In this document: in pieces, positions 6,806 to 21,596 of the stretch
Numbering within the stretch: the first letter of the stretch is position 1
How the letters are laid out: each line of letters opens with the position of its first letter
Virus record (IMG/VR): IMGVR_UViG_3300030107_002418
Coordinates: 1 to 30,444 of that record
DNA: 30,444 nt
From: a virus
Strand: one strand, 5' to 3'
The notes under the pieces: generated by a model
Seen by the model: the letters and a program-made list of their open reading frames with translations, nothing else
What the model was told of the DNA's origin: nothing
Databases searched by the model: none
Made by a program: the position numbers and the translations under genes

Positions 6806-7250
6806 ATCTCTCCTCCCAGAAATCATTAACTAAATCAGAACTTGATTGGATTTTTTCACCACCTATGTTGAAAATTAATCCAACTCCATACTGTTGACAA
6901 ACATCAGCTTCGGGTATATCCTCTCTGCCTTTCCTGTCACCACCGTTAGCAAACACGCTTATCTTATTAGATAAGTCCTGACATAAGTCTTGTAGTGTTA
7001 AACAGACAGTATGGTCGTTATCTATAGAGGGTACTACTCGGTCAACTGATTTTAAGTTAGCTATGACCTCCATACGCTCCTCAAAAGGCATAAACACGTA
7101 CCCTTTTTTGTCTTTTAAGAACTTATCGTTGTTTACTATCACTATTAATTCACCACCTAGTGGGTTGGCTAGGTTCTTAGCCTCGTTAAACATACGAACA
7201 TGTCCTACGTGTATTGGGTCAAATCCACCACTTACTATAACATTACTCAT
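6708..7250 (-). CDS. Cytidylyltransferase-like nucleotidyltransferase
   Basis: Class-I nucleotidyltransferase (HxGH family, like glycerol-3-phosphate cytidylyltransferase or the heptose-phosphate adenylyltransferase domain of RfaE/HldE). The N terminus has GGFDPIHVGHVRMF with H14 and H17 forming HxGH, and later the PFEERMEVI segment typical of the family. These enzymes transfer a nucleotide to a phosphorylated alcohol or sugar. The fold should end near residue 150; the last 33 or so residues are low-complexity, charged, and read in a different frame over the start of the downstream oxygenase. The substrate is not determinable. Start overlaps the 49-aa basic protein by four bases (ATGA). Confidence 0.8.
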   Translation of the reverse strand: MSNVIVSGGFDPIHVGHVRMFNEAKNLANPLGGELIVIVNNDKFLKDKKGYVFMPFEERMEVIANLKSVDRVVPSIDNDHTVCLTLQDLCQDLSNKISVFANGGDRKGREDIPEADVCQQYGVGLIFNIGGEKIQSSSDLVNDFWEERYEQLSGKKLPSGSKVRVDDKRGNGKADEGSSS

Positions 7251-7396
7251 TTTCCTTGCCCCCTGTATTTTTTCCTAGACCTTTTTTTGTGCTTGTTCAT
7301 TGTCGCTGTTCCTATGTTGTTTCGACCAATAGATGTTTTCTTACCTCTTGACCCAGTTTTAGAAATGTGACCTATACTTATTGTTGCTTTTCTCAT
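7247..7396 (-). CDS. Very basic small protein, 49 aa
   Basis: The ATG (complement of 7394-7396) has GGAGAAAA directly upstream, and the frame ends in an ATGA overlap with the cytidylyltransferase. Nearly a third of the residues are Lys or Arg (MRKATISIGHISKTG, ending KKRSRKKYRGQGK), with many Gly, Ser and Thr and almost no acidic residues. A nucleic-acid-binding role is plausible. A strong terminator lies just upstream, with its U-tract next to the ribosome binding site, so expression may depend on readthrough. Confidence 0.6.
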   Translation of the reverse strand: MRKATISIGHISKTGSRGKKTSIGRNNIGTATMNKHKKRSRKKYRGQGK

Positions 7397-7404
7397 TTTT
7401 CTCC

Positions 7405-7430
7405 AAAAAAGGGGAGCAATTACGCTCCCC
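7405..7430 (-). terminator. Rho-independent terminator
   Basis: On the minus strand GGGGAGC and GCTCCCC form a seven-base perfect stem with a six-base loop (7411-7430), followed immediately by six T (7410-7405). It lies 12 bases after the stop of the 176-aa gene and 9 bases before the next ATG, so it would limit transcription into the downstream genes. Confidence 0.85.
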
Positions 7431-7442
7431 TCTAAATTGTAG

Positions 7443-8034: not shown

Positions 8035-8334
8035 TTAGTGGTATCTTGTAGGGACACCACGAAATTTAATAAAACCATCTTTGAGGGCTTGTGTCATCAC
8101 ATCTAGTAATTCATCATCAGTTAATAATAATGGGTCATTTGAGTCTGCTGGCGTGATTGCCATATAGACTGCTGACCATAAAAAACCAGAAATGAGAAGA
8201 CTGGGGTGGTATTCCCCAGTCTTAACAAGTTCCTCAGCAAAGGCAGTTAATTTTTGCGCAACTTCCAATGTCGCTTCTTCCATTTCCAGAAGCGAATGGA
8301 TTGCTATTTCAAATTCATCATGCTGCTTTGGCAT
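8035..8334 (-). CDS. Hypothetical acidic protein, 99 aa
   Basis: An acidic, predicted all-helical protein (MPKQHDEFEIAIHSLLEMEE...). A segment around residues 45-60 (LLISGFLWSAVYMAI) is hydrophobic and could be a buried helix or a membrane span. Its start overlaps the 3' end of the DUF932 gene by 17 bases, so it is co-translated. I do not recognise the family. Confidence 0.65.
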   Translation of the reverse strand: MPKQHDEFEIAIHSLLEMEEATLEVAQKLTAFAEELVKTGEYHPSLLISGFLWSAVYMAITPADSNDPLLLTDDELLDVMTQALKDGFIKFRGVPTRYH

Positions 8335-9352
8335 ACTCTATCGCTTTGTCTAGTGCTCGTTCTTTTAGTTTACTACGAGAACCGAACCAAGCGTTGTGAA
8401 TTGCTGAATCTCTATCGTATCCCCACTTGTGGTCTACTATAAAAGTAACAGCATTGTATGCACCCCACCATGTACCTTTTGAAGATAGCATGTCTGCTCC
8501 TGGTTGTTGCTCTAAAGCTTCATAAACCATACTAGGTGTTTTCTTAAACTCATCTACCATAGTTTGTCGCTTTGCAATCTTCCTAACATCAGACTCATTT
8601 TCAAGCTTTATTTGCTCAGTCAATAAGTTTGGTTGAAGAAGGTCTGCTATGAAAGTAACAACGTCATCCTTTTTGTACTTTTTAGTAGTCAAAAATTCTG
8701 CTTGTTCTTTATACTCTCCCATTTTATTTGAAGCTAGACCAAGTGCAAGTTCCGCAGAGGAGATAATCTCCTCATCAAAGGCTCTAATATGAGGCATTTT
8801 AAAAACACCTCTTTGACCTTCTAGACTCATAGCTAAGCTAAGCGTGTTATTACAGACTACACGAATAGGTGTGAATCTAATTTCATTAGACTTACCCCAC
8901 TGGTGTGATACTGCTACTAACATGTAACCCTCAACCTTGTCGTCTCCTGGAAGCACAAAACCATCATTGATTTTTGCTAACCCCCAGACTTGTTTACCTT
9001 CTTTCAAAGAACCTGCAGTTTCCATTTTCATGTCTCCTGCATCAGTGAACTTTTTAAAGAACGTGAACGCGTCACGGTTTTGAGTTGGAATGAAGTCAGG
9101 TCCACAAGGTCCAAAAGCCTTTTGATCATTATCACGTACAAGTACATGAAAACCATCAACGGGCATGAACTCAGGGTCTGACTCGTTATACTGAGGAGTG
9201 GTGTGTGTAAACATGTGTCGTTTACTAACGGTCCAATCCAATCCAGCTGCCACTAGCATTTCATCAGGTGTCAAGTTATCTTCAACTTGAACTCCTAATC
9301 CGTGCCAGGGGACTTCTCCAGCATAAGCCATGGTCTCTACCATATGTGCCAT
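8318..9352 (-). CDS. DUF932 phage/plasmid-like protein
   Basis: The N terminus (MVETMAYAGEVPWHGLG), the middle (RVVCNNTLSLAM) and the C terminus (TWWGAYNAVTFIVDHKWG) match the DUF932 family (phage/plasmid-like protein TIGR03299) as I know it. Members are common in phages and plasmids and their activity is not established. The length of 344 aa is normal. ATG 9352 has AGGAGAAAACAT upstream. It is first in the block behind the promoter and hairpin at 9388-9453, so it is probably expressed early and strongly. Confidence 0.85.
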   Translation of the reverse strand: MAHMVETMAYAGEVPWHGLGVQVEDNLTPDEMLVAAGLDWTVSKRHMFTHTTPQYNESDPEFMPVDGFHVLVRDNDQKAFGPCGPDFIPTQNRDAFTFFKKFTDAGDMKMETAGSLKEGKQVWGLAKINDGFVLPGDDKVEGYMLVAVSHQWGKSNEIRFTPIRVVCNNTLSLAMSLEGQRGVFKMPHIRAFDEEIISSAELALGLASNKMGEYKEQAEFLTTKKYKKDDVVTFIADLLQPNLLTEQIKLENESDVRKIAKRQTMVDEFKKTPSMVYEALEQQPGADMLSSKGTWWGAYNAVTFIVDHKWGYDRDSAIHNAWFGSRSKLKERALDKAIEYAKAA

Positions 9353-9387
9353 ATGTTTTCTCCTGTTTTTATATTAATGTTAAACAA

Positions 9388-9422
9388 CTCACCTAGGAAG
9401 TAGTAACTACTTAATAGGTGAG
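9388..9422 (-). promoter_or_regulatory. 35-base two-part inverted repeat in a 5' leader
   Basis: CTCACCTA/TAGGTGAG (8 bp) encloses a small internal loop and then AAGTAG/CTACTT (6 bp) around a TAA loop. It starts within a few bases of the predicted transcript start of the promoter at 9426-9453, 35 bases before the DUF932 start codon. It could be an mRNA-stabilising 5' hairpin or an operator. Confidence 0.65.
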
Positions 9423-9425
9423 GTA

Positions 9426-9453
9426 AGCATATAGCTGACTAAACGATTGTAAA
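9426..9453 (-). promoter_or_regulatory. Leftward promoter, class A
   Basis: On the minus strand TTTACA and TATGCT are separated by 16 bases, with ATCGTTTAGTC just after the -35. This is shared almost base for base with the promoter at 4150-4177. It drives DUF932 and the genes after it. Confidence 0.6.
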
Positions 9454-9499
9454 GGGTTATGTTAAGAATGGCTAGTGAATTGCGAACATTTGTTTAAAT

Positions 9500-9557
9500 A
9501 AAAAATGGGCTGACATCCGTGAATATGTTAGCATAAATATGCTAGAATGCCAGCCCA
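9500..9557 (-). terminator. Terminator closing the candidate ncRNA
   Basis: A 13-bp stem (UGGGCUGGCAUUC with GGAUGUCAGCCCA, two G-U pairs) carries an inner UAGCAUA/UAUGCUA hairpin and is followed by U6 on the minus strand. On the plus strand two of the pairs become A-C mismatches, so it serves leftward RNA. It would also stop readthrough from the replication operon. Confidence 0.65.
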
Positions 9558-9833
9558 CTATGGGATCATCGGCACCAGAGTTATTAACAACTCTGGCTGG
9601 AAATGCTATTATGAAACAGCCAACTCCCACCGCAGGTGTTATTTATTCCCCACCGCCTGCTGGGGTCTCAAATTCATAAAACTCAGTCAGTTAGTGTGGT
9701 TACGGTTAGAAGGTGCCAATTTCATTCTAACATTCGTTAACTGCACCACGTAGCCACACCAACCTAGTAGATAAACAGTTTTGATTCTCGGAGGTGCCTA
9801 GATCAGCGTTCCTACAAAACTATTTATTTACTT
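9500..9833 (-). ncRNA. Candidate structured non-coding RNA, about 334 nt
   Basis: There is no credible gene between 9353 and 9872. On the minus strand a class A promoter (9840-9867) would start an RNA near 9833 that ends at a U6 tract (9505-9500). Helices I can pair: AGTTTTG/CAAAACT, extendable to 11 bp with one U-G (about 9774-9825); GTTAGAA/TTCTAAC (9704-9730) nested in a GTGTGG/CCACAC stem (9694-9759); CCAGAGTT/AACTCTGG (9574-9595); TGGCTG/CAGCCA; and a 13-bp closing stem with two G-U pairs (9506-9518 with 9545-9557) around TAGCATA/TATGCTA. In the closing stem and the first helix, G-U pairs form only on the minus strand. GGTGC/GCACC segments allow a pseudoknot. I match it to no known class. 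Confidence 0.65.
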
Positions 9834-9839
9834 ACCTTT

Positions 9840-9867
9840 AGTTTAATTATGATTTTACGAATGTAAA
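9840..9867 (-). promoter_or_regulatory. Promoter of the candidate ncRNA, class A
   Basis: On the minus strand TTTACA and TAAACT are 16 bases apart, with TTCGT directly after the -35 as in the promoters at 4150 and 9426. The -10 is four of six to consensus. It lies just after the nuclease gene's stop (9873). Confidence 0.5.
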
Positions 9868-9872
9868 AACAT

Positions 9873-10253
9873 TTATTTACTAAATAAAATGTTTCTTAAA
9901 GCTTCCCAGTCATAAGGAGCACTTAGTTCTAATAGGCTAGGATGCTTTAACCCTTGATCCCTTACCTCACGTGCGTCTAGTCCAGAAAAGAGATGCAATG
10001 TTCTTTTGTCAGTACCTACTAATATATAAGTAGCCACCCCTGCTCTTCCAAACTTAACTAACCAAGAAATTTGCTCAGGTCTTAGCTTAACTGCGTTAGT
10101 CGTCGTGACTTTAAGTTCTACCCAGCAGCAGTTGGAATCATAGACTCCAAATACATCAGCTATACCCCTGCCAGTCCCACCTGTTTCTATCCTTTGCCAA
10201 AGGACATCATCAAGTTTATCCCTGAGGTTATTCCAAAGATTACTTTCTTTCAC
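9873..10253 (-). CDS. PD-(D/E)XK nuclease, VRR-NUC/Holliday-resolvase-like
   Basis: A small nuclease of the type found in phage replication clusters. The core is visible: GIADVFG with D33, then VELK with E46 and K48, and Q61 in LRPEQISWL, the D...ExK...Q order of the PD-(D/E)XK fold. The upstream RIETGGTGRG loop also fits VRR-NUC and resolvase-like enzymes. Likely role: resolving branched DNA during replication or packaging. The length of 126 aa is typical for a stand-alone domain. Last gene of the replication operon; the start overlaps the HTH gene by 14 bases. Confidence 0.8.
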   Translation of the reverse strand: MKESNLWNNLRDKLDDVLWQRIETGGTGRGIADVFGVYDSNCCWVELKVTTTNAVKLRPEQISWLVKFGRAGVATYILVGTDKRTLHLFSGLDAREVRDQGLKHPSLLELSAPYDWEALRNILFSK

Positions 10254-10557
10254 CAGACAGAGTTATCATTTTAGCACCTTGCTCACTCATCCATTTACGC
10301 ATGAGTTCATGAAGTCGCTTACCCTTAACTCCTAGTTCTTTTAAAGAATCTTCTTTGCTTTTGTATCTAACGTACCCTTGATAATAATCCCCATCACCTA
10401 ATTGACAACGACGTATAATCTGCCAAACACGTTGCTTAGTGAGATTATACTCATTGGCAAGACCATCCATCGTTATGTCACTGCCTTTGTATTCTCTGTA
10501 GATTTGACTATTTCTATCAAATTGTACTTTTTGATCAGCTTCACTAATCCCTTTCAT
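10240..10557 (-). CDS. Helix-turn-helix DNA-binding protein
   Basis: Residues about 18-50 (YREYKGSDITMDGLANEYN then LTKQRVWQIIRRCQ) form a helix-turn-helix like sigma-factor region 4 or Mor-type domains. The rest is basic and helical. It could be a transcription regulator of phage genes or help the adjacent nuclease or polymerase find sites. ATG 10557 follows AGGAGGCATTTA; an upstream ATG at 10572 lies before that site and is less likely. It overlaps the polymerase end by 14 bases. Confidence 0.75.
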   Translation of the reverse strand: MKGISEADQKVQFDRNSQIYREYKGSDITMDGLANEYNLTKQRVWQIIRRCQLGDGDYYQGYVRYKSKEDSLKELGVKGKRLHELMRKWMSEQGAKMITLSGERK

Positions 10558-12436
10558 TAAATGCCTCCTCATAAGACGTTGTTGCGTTACCCCAAGTTGT
10601 ACCTAGTTCAGCGTCAACTAGATTGGGGACTTCTAATTGAACACAGTTCTCCATTATTTCTTTTATTTCTTTTGCTTGTTGTTTTGTTTCTACTGATATA
10701 TCTAGTTCATCATGTACTTGTACGTGTGGAATATAGCCTTCTTTATATAAGTCGACCATAGCTTTCTTTGTCATATCTGCTGCTGAACCTTGTATTAAAC
10801 GATTCAATGCCTTGTAAGTGTATGATCTTACTATATTTTCTTCCCCCCACTTCTCTGAAGCTTCGGGGTAGGCTAGAGGTATGTTACGTTGACCACGTGG
10901 TTCAAAAAGATTAAAGCGACACTTTCTTCCCAGTAACGTAGTAACATGACCACGATTACTAGCGTTACGCATACAGGAATCGGCTAATGCTTTAACAAAC
11001 GGTACTCGGTGGTGGTATTTAGCGATTAAGTCCTCAGCTTCGGTATCTGATATACCAAGCATTGAGATTAATTTCTTTTTACCCATACCATAAGAGAGAG
11101 CCAAGTTAATATCCTTTGCCTGTTTTCTAGGGATATTAGCCATGTCTGCCACTATTTGATGGAAGTCTGCGTTTTGATCCCTATACTGTTCAACAGCATT
11201 TTGTGCTCCTGGTTGATTAGTGAGGGCAGCATAATGTACAGTCAGTCTGGGTTCTTGCTGGCTATAGTCAAACGCTCCCCATAAACACCCCTCCTCAGGG
11301 ACAAAAAGCCCACGTATTAAAGGTCCAAGTTCTGGGTCTCTAGCTGGTACTTGTTGCAGGTTAGGTGTGCTATAACTAAATCTACCAGTTACCGTACCCC
11401 CATCATCAGAACGTAAAGGATGCATTTGACCATGTATCCTGCCGTTATGTGAGTGCTCAAATATCATCTTTTCTATGAAGGTAGTACGCATCTTATTATA
11501 TCTACGTGCCTTCACAATAGATTGAGGTAACTCGTGTGAGTGACCTTCTAACCATTGAGCAGTAAAGCTGGGTTGATTAGACTTAGGTGTTCTGGGGTAA
11601 GTGAGTCCTGCACTGTCAAAAGCTTTAGCTATTGACCTAGCATTCCACACCTCTATAGGTACACCGTAATCTTTCTTAATCTGATCCAGTAATCTTTTTT
11701 CCTCACCCTTTAGGTAATGGGACTTTTCGTCTGCGGCATTTTCATCAACACGCACACCTCTCCAACGCATTTCTATAAGTAAGGGAAGTAAGTCTCTTTC
11801 TAAACCATAGATTTGATTGATCTCTTCTTGGTCAATTAAGCCTTTTAAAACCTGCCAGAGTTTTAATGTCAAAACAGCATCCTGTTCAGCGTAAGGTCCA
11901 ACATAGTTAGAGGGAAGCTTCCACATTTCAGCTTTAGGATCAATACCAAAAGAATGTGCTGCTTCCCTAAGCAAAGACTCATCTTTACGTTCACCACAAT
12001 ACTCTGAACCTAATGAATCTAAAGAATATCTATTTCTATTTTCATTAACCAGAGGTGCAGCAACCATCGTATCTTGGATAGTTCCTGTTATCTCAACTCC
12101 TAACCTTTTTAACCATCCTACGTCATACATGGCGTTATGGAATATTTTGTCTGATGGAGTTGCCATTTGTTTTTTAAGCCAATTGACAACAAAATCTTTT
12201 TCTAAATTTCCACCACCCTGATGTTTAAATGGTAAATACCCTGACCAACCCTCAGTAGCTATTGCCACACCCACAACTTCACCTGTGTTTGTAGCCCATC
12301 CTGGACCTTTCAGTATCAGACCTGGATCATGAGTTTCCAAGTCTATAGCTATTTCCTTAGCAGAACTTAAATCAGGTAAGTTTTGTGGAGGAGACCATTT
12401 GCTTTCTGGAGCAAAGAGAGGCATTTGTTGTGTCAT
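10544..12436 (-). CDS. polA: Family A DNA polymerase with 3'-5' exonuclease
   Basis: The replicative polymerase. Exonuclease motifs: IDLET (D32, E34), HNAMYDVGWL (D105), YAEQDAV (Y182, D186). Polymerase motifs: A, DYSQQEPR (D390, E395, R397); B, RKQAKDINLALSYG (R437, K441, Y449, G450); C, HDE (575-577). There is no 5'-3' nuclease domain, as in T7-type and many phage enzymes. In motif B the residue equivalent to Phe762 of E. coli Pol I is Leu445. ATG overlaps the upstream stop by one base (TAATG). It works with the primase (18004), ssDNA-binding candidate (19586) and helicases. Confidence 0.97.
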   Translation of the reverse strand: MTQQMPLFAPESKWSPPQNLPDLSSAKEIAIDLETHDPGLILKGPGWATNTGEVVGVAIATEGWSGYLPFKHQGGGNLEKDFVVNWLKKQMATPSDKIFHNAMYDVGWLKRLGVEITGTIQDTMVAAPLVNENRNRYSLDSLGSEYCGERKDESLLREAAHSFGIDPKAEMWKLPSNYVGPYAEQDAVLTLKLWQVLKGLIDQEEINQIYGLERDLLPLLIEMRWRGVRVDENAADEKSHYLKGEEKRLLDQIKKDYGVPIEVWNARSIAKAFDSAGLTYPRTPKSNQPSFTAQWLEGHSHELPQSIVKARRYNKMRTTFIEKMIFEHSHNGRIHGQMHPLRSDDGGTVTGRFSYSTPNLQQVPARDPELGPLIRGLFVPEEGCLWGAFDYSQQEPRLTVHYAALTNQPGAQNAVEQYRDQNADFHQIVADMANIPRKQAKDINLALSYGMGKKKLISMLGISDTEAEDLIAKYHHRVPFVKALADSCMRNASNRGHVTTLLGRKCRFNLFEPRGQRNIPLAYPEASEKWGEENIVRSYTYKALNRLIQGSAADMTKKAMVDLYKEGYIPHVQVHDELDISVETKQQAKEIKEIMENCVQLEVPNLVDAELGTTWGNATTSYEEAFNERD

Positions 12437-21214: not shown

Positions 21215-21238
21215 AGTTTTCTCTTTTATCTTGGATAG

Positions 21239-21267
21239 AGTATAGTCCTATATAAGGGATAAGTAAA
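21239..21267 (-). promoter_or_regulatory. Promoter of the replication operon, class B
   Basis: On the minus strand TTTACT and TATACT are 17 bases apart. The -35 context ATCACTTTACTT recurs at 8025-8036. A nine-base inverted repeat (21272-21293) lies just upstream and could be an operator. Confidence 0.6.
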
Positions 21268-21487
21268 GTGATAATAATACAAATGTATTATTAGCTATTA
21301 TATGGATGTAAATTTTTTAAAAAATAAAAACAGTTTTTGGACAGTTTTAGCCAATAGCCCAATATATTTTCATTTACTTTGTTAATTTACAGAGGGTTTT
21401 CGTTATATTGAGTAAGGCTATTATCTCAATATTGGATATTTTACTCAATATCTGGTGATTACGTGTGTTTAAATCTTTTTAAATGGC

Positions 21488-21516
21488 TTTACTTATATTA
21501 TTTCTTATTATATCCT
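21488..21516 (+). promoter_or_regulatory. Promoter of the SNF2-type helicase, class B
   Basis: TTTACT and TATCCT are 17 bases apart, with CTTTACTTAT as in the leftward replication promoter. The predicted RNA would start near 21523, exactly where a long inverted repeat begins. Confidence 0.5.
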
Positions 21517-21523
21517 TATGTTG

Positions 21524-21575
21524 GATAACTAGAGTGCACATCTTAAAAATTCTATTCACATGAACTCTAGTTATC
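21524..21575 (+). promoter_or_regulatory. 12-bp inverted repeat in the helicase 5' leader
   Basis: GATAACTAGAGT and ACTCTAGTTATC are perfect 12-base complements 28 bases apart. The arm starts at the predicted +1 and the structure ends 21 bases before the ATG, so it could form the 5' end of the mRNA or bind a dimeric regulator. Confidence 0.6.
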
Positions 21576-21596
21576 TACTTAGATTAAAGAGACTAT

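Follow-up and report, generated by a model that had tools for sequence, protein, structure and literature searches.

The stretch of DNA analysed here, referred to as the window, spans 30,444 bases and forms the first part of a phage record of 63,629 bases, in which structural, terminase and portal genes are present. Within the window, a gap of 520 bases (9353-9872) is flanked on both sides by minus-strand genes, a small nuclease-like gene upstream (9873-10253) and a DUF932 gene downstream (8318-9352). Checks of genes and open reading frames in the gap agreed with the initial annotation, which had seen no supported gene there, and no coding frame was conserved across relatives of the region. 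According to the data described below, the gap very probably codes for a structured RNA of ~335 bases, running on the minus strand from about 9837 to 9500. Besides this locus, the same phage has other long gaps without clear genes, at 6827-7442 and 21215-21596 of the window and at 57949-58575 of the record. Two genes upstream of the RNA lies a Mor-like small transcription activator (10240-10572), which could control nearby promoters.

The minus strand of 9500-9833 folds with -115 kcal/mol (z -5.4), a value that none of 100 shuffled sequences reached, and every module outfolds its shuffles when taken separately. The plus strand folds more weakly (z -4.3). Comparison of homologues yielded covarying base pairs, which, together with the lack of a conserved coding frame, lends good support to the earlier proposal that the minus strand encodes a structured non-coding RNA. 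We thus consider a conserved structured RNA at the gap highly probable. Searches of the window with Rfam covariance models and ARAGORN gave no match to GOLLD, ROOL, 6S RNA, tmRNA, tRNA or RNase P; matches to freshwater-2, mir-1949 and Trp_leader lay far below the cut-off and were rejected. No annotated phage matched the region in a BLASTN search, and searches with two sister RNAs as query likewise gave no match.

Exchange of hairpins among the nearest relatives

The same locus was retrieved from other phages via homologues of DUF932. Among these phages, the region is present only in L002 and L003, which are identical to each other here, in L005, and at the edge of L004. In the distant phages L006-L012, only 72-87 bases lie at the same place, with DUF932 kept and the RNA absent. 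Over shared stretches, the L002 contig is ~94% and L005 ~78% identical to the window's phage.

The 5' part of the RNA consists of two hairpins, M1 (9763-9836, z -3.6) and M2 (9691-9762, z -2.7), followed by a 25-nt linker, CTGACTGAGTTTTATGAATTTGAGA (9666-9690). The linker is 92-100% identical in the relatives and the pseudoknot module behind it 94-100% identical across the nearest of them. In contrast to this, identity between the window and L005 is near the shuffled level in three modules, M2, P3 and the terminator, with pairing kept: in M2, 6 of the 12 outermost pairs are changed on both sides, as are 5 of 10 pairs in the terminator stem. The GGTGC/GCACC pairing that the initial annotation had read as a possible pseudoknot turned out to be an ordinary nested helix within M2. 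For M1, the outer arms are kept and the interior is wholly different from that of L002 and L005, so that, arms excepted, identity between the window and L002 is near the shuffled level. The M1 hairpins of L002 and L005, however, are 99% identical, despite the far closer overall identity of L002 to the window. Because the modules differ in sequence and yet pair, we conclude that hairpins are replaced as units while the structure persists. M1 has been exchanged between phages against their genome-wide relationship, which points to recombination of RNA modules. The interior of the window's M1 was found in no other phage, and a match of an M1 17-mer of the L002 type to L332, a GC-rich coding contig, was dismissed as chance.

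Promoter-like site and terminator

Upstream of M1 lies a sigma-70-like promoter, TTTACA-16-TAAACT (9840-9867, minus strand), which scores 9/12 in a consensus scan and is weak by itself. The site is kept in L002 and L005 (with TAAAAT in the latter) and predicts a transcription start near 9837-9833. The phage-type promoter suggested previously thus found no support, the sigma-70-like site being what the relatives keep: no T7-like promoter was found, and the window has a single copy of the promoter-like 16-mer. A search of the record for a single-subunit phage RNA polymerase also found none, a result that does not show absence, as the control matched nowhere. At the other end, the closing hairpin with its U6 tail is real and represents an intrinsic terminator, in which a long stem with an inner hairpin precedes UUUUUU (9500-9556, z -6.8).

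Beyond the terminator, and outside the RNA, follows a promoter-like block of the DUF932 gene (9437-9486, minus strand) that is conserved in the relatives; its 23-mer TTCGCAATTCACTAGCCATTCTT is identical in L002, L003 and L005 and has one mismatch in L004. Because of the terminator, the separate promoter-like block before DUF932, and the distant phages in which DUF932 is not preceded by the RNA, we consider it likely that the RNA is an independent transcript with its own promoter and its own terminator. The 5' UTR of DUF932 contains a hairpin of its own (9388-9422, CTCACCTA...TAGGTGAG), whose sequence differs in L004 and L005 while the stem remains.

A pseudoknot core shared across phages

The most conserved module is an H-type pseudoknot (9632-9665, minus strand), supported by covariation in S1 and S2 and by a match to the class model R1 at 9668-9607. 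S1 is formed by CCC(C) and GGG(G), loop L1 reads CA or A, and L2 reads CGGU. The conserved pseudoknot pairing, S2, joins GCAGG (9660-9656) with CCUGC (9636-9632), and the A-rich L3, AAUAAAUAACA (9647-9637), follows a pattern common to all members. Using the core CAGCAGGCGGU-S1'-A-rich-ACACCUGC as a DNA search pattern, we recovered a Methylophaga prophage (L125) and many viral contigs. About 30 other phage or prophage loci can form S1 with differing, co-varying sequences, and the middle pair of S2 is A-U, C-G or G-C (12 rows, two of them from members that the model recovered and the pattern did not). The remaining pattern matches in viral contigs look like coding sequence or chance, and most matches in bacterial genomes were rejected as coding, leaving only L125. 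Between a cro-like and a recT-like gene of this prophage (L125:840-1610), a non-coding stretch of several hundred bases holds the pseudoknot core together with a tRNA gene and may represent a still larger RNA.

A second conserved domain

Directly behind the pseudoknot, search, fold and covariation delineated a second domain with two hairpins inside, P3 (9560-9630, minus strand). In most members, CCUGC is followed by one base, a 6-bp P3 stem whose 3' side carries a 2-nt GA bulge, and P3b further inward. The window has the layout G-[GUGGGA](GUUGGC)...(GCCGAU)GA[UCCCAU], with P3 formed by GTGGGA (9630-9625) and TCCCAT (9565-9560), the GA bulge at 9567-9566, and P3b formed by GTTGGC (9624-9619) and GCCGAT (9573-9568), whose first pair is G.U. 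The P3 domain of the window scored 27, as compared to a 99th percentile of 19 and a maximum of 29 among 1240 shuffled tails, and its minimum-energy fold in isolation shows the same GA bulge. For L005, the bulge is seen in a fold of the complete domain and is absent from the fold of a shorter stretch.

We aligned 20 class members. Across this alignment, in which the search placing P3 demanded pairing, 371 of 380 cells (97.6%) pair on the RNA strand versus 319 of 380 on the complement, and 13 of the 19 pairs carry double changes. The covariation score was 0.68, compared with 0.19 for shuffled rows and at most 0.16 for slid ones, and the first pair of P3b is G.U in all 20 rows. The inference of the minus strand that had been drawn from G-U pairs therefore holds as a preference. 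The R1 model, built without the window's clade, gave 41.3 bits at this place and matched nothing else in the phage record, where the core contributes to the score in a circular way, since the letters of the window's core had served to collect the members. Members left out of R1, such as L218, L142 and L138, scored 43-54 bits. Owing to a long insert, R1 fits the window's P3 poorly locally, and the domain is identified there by search and fold. Of the features of the CA/CGGU class, the window has the R1 match, S1, the 6-bp P3, the GA bulge and a G.U-closed P3b.

Kinship with Proteo-phage-1

Neither the window nor its record matched the Rfam family RF03044 (Proteo-phage-1), even at E 5-10. One class member, L272, reached 42.2 bits against RF03044 (gathering cut-off, 42 bits) and is matched by both models on the same core. 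In the family consensus, GcgG-AUaA-GCCGG-uuAGU-GCcgC-...AAaAACa-CCGGC-AGCC, we see the same pseudoknot with different loops, a reading of the consensus, as the RF03044 model encodes no S2 pairs. Both are phage RNAs in which S1 encloses a loop that contains one half of S2, its 5' strand, the third loop is A-rich and ends in AACA, and the S2 strand reads CCNGC. Moreover, at the RF03044-type loci in L316 and Pseudomonas phage phiAH14a, the pseudoknot is also followed directly by a short stem. The two differ in loop 1 (AUaA in the family, CA or A in the window), loop 2 (uuAGU versus CGGU) and S2 (GCCGG/CCGGC versus GCAGG/CCUGC). In the family, a 5' hairpin sits one base upstream of S1, whereas the window has a 25-nt linker with M2 beyond it, and thus two other hairpins, M1 and M2, further upstream. 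Finally, the curated RF03044 model stops before the P3 domain.

Taken together, kinship of the RNA with Proteo-phage-1 is well supported. We regard the RNA as a divergent CA/CGGU variant of the same kind as Proteo-phage-1, made larger by two hairpins on its 5' side, and it stands outside RF03044 as curated because it departs from the family in score, loop letters and 5' hairpin. The initial annotation had presented a candidate new RNA matching no known class. This holds in part: the window has no Rfam, tRNA or tmRNA match, but the core is of the RF03044 kind and recurs at ~30 further loci. What is new is the CA/CGGU subtype; the kind of core was already known. A search of 369 genomes of one class with RF03044 gave one weak match, and phiAH14a was the only match of its consensus among phages. 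To our knowledge, Proteo-phage-1 is an orphan RNA without a function.

Large structured RNAs encoded by phage genomes include GOLLD and ROOL (PMC12286853). The window RNA resembles these in being a structured RNA of a phage genome, but is much shorter, has a different core and lacks an Rfam match; L125 has a tRNA nearby, yet no GOLLD match.

Possible functions of the RNA

Structure, strand, conservation and kinship of the RNA are established by computation. Its function, which we infer, is most likely that of a trans-acting phage RNA that pairs via pyrimidine-rich loops and has a variable target-binding part. The H-type pseudoknot and the GA-bulged multibranched stem behind it would form a scaffold that protects and presents the RNA. 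Single-stranded pyrimidine-rich loops may pair with mRNAs of the phage or its host at their ribosome-binding sites, and the exchangeable hairpins M1 and M2 would be the target-specific part in this clade. In the P3b region, CUCC occurs in 14 of 20 members (5.5 expected from shuffles) and CCUCC in 7 (1.6 expected), as compared to GGAG in only one (3 expected). This enrichment suggests, at the level of sequence, loops that could pair with ribosome-binding sites. For the window's clade the hint is weak, because the window's own P3b loop and the M1 of L002 lack CUCC; in the window, CACCUCC is found only in M1. A crude target scan yielded nothing clearly above shuffles. We propose regulation of translation by base pairing only tentatively, and put the probability of the complete reading, an independent Proteo-phage-1-like non-coding RNA with a scaffold that regulates by loop pairing, at roughly 0.4.

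The 'cuckoo' sRNAs, whose CUCC-rich loops can base-pair at ribosome-binding sites, offer a comparison in mode of action only. Their fold is different, and the equivalent loop of the window lacks CUCC. Such anti-Shine-Dalgarno sRNAs of alphaproteobacteria are mentioned in PMC10746234.

Nearly as probable as base pairing, and still doubtful, is that the RNA serves as a protein-binding decoy or scaffold. Here, the pseudoknot and P3 would bind a protein of the host or of a phage, such as a nuclease, a defence sensor or a polymerase, and an arms race would change the hairpins. Consistent with this, the letters of the pseudoknot are strongly kept, the G.U pair and GA bulge are invariant over diverse phages, and modules are exchanged among near-identical phages; protein-binding pseudoknot RNAs are known, as exemplified by ToxI (PMC5772629). 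In about half of the class members, an additional hairpin, with an ACGNNAC loop that occurs in 5% of shuffles, lies downstream of P3 (e.g. in L305, L249, L142 and L218) and is in some cases followed by T runs; it could mark a protein partner. This hairpin, however, is absent from the window and L005, where a plain terminator takes its place, and neither a repeat array nor a toxin gene was seen beside the RNA in the window.

It is unlikely that the RNA belongs to the 3' end of the upstream operon as a structured 3' UTR with terminator that stabilises early mRNAs or ends them. Many class members do follow replication-type genes (helicase, primase, exonuclease, endonuclease or methyltransferase), beginning 4 to ~50 nt behind the stop codon, and several finish with a terminator-like hairpin and a T run. 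In the window, however, two extra hairpins and a promoter-like site separate the upstream gene from the pseudoknot, and the size of the domain greatly exceeds what a terminator requires. Somewhat less probable still is a cis-acting leader, in which a riboswitch or attenuator in the 5' UTR controls DUF932 through the terminator. In all three full contigs, the RNA lies directly upstream of DUF932 on the same strand, but the terminator is followed by the promoter-like block that all relatives share, the distant phages keep DUF932 without the RNA, and class members elsewhere precede other genes, mostly behind replication genes. A replication origin or packaging site folding by chance, as its inverted repeats and position beside replication genes might suggest, is very improbable given G.U pairs that favour one strand (one of them invariant), no skew switch specific to the gap, and a core that occupies unrelated genomic places elsewhere.

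Wider implications

Linking Proteo-phage-1 to ~30 further loci and to a well-defined second domain provides a larger alignment for this RNA family, and a defined full-length molecule is now at hand for expression and probing. The exchange of modules in near-identical phages constitutes a natural experiment, pointing to the part of the RNA that is under selection. More speculatively, Proteo-phage-1 may be one edge of a phage-wide superclass of RNAs, in which a fixed scaffold of pseudoknot and GA-bulged 3' domain carries exchangeable hairpins and influences translation or host defence in the infected cell, with the window's clade displaying the exchange of hairpins in an arms race.
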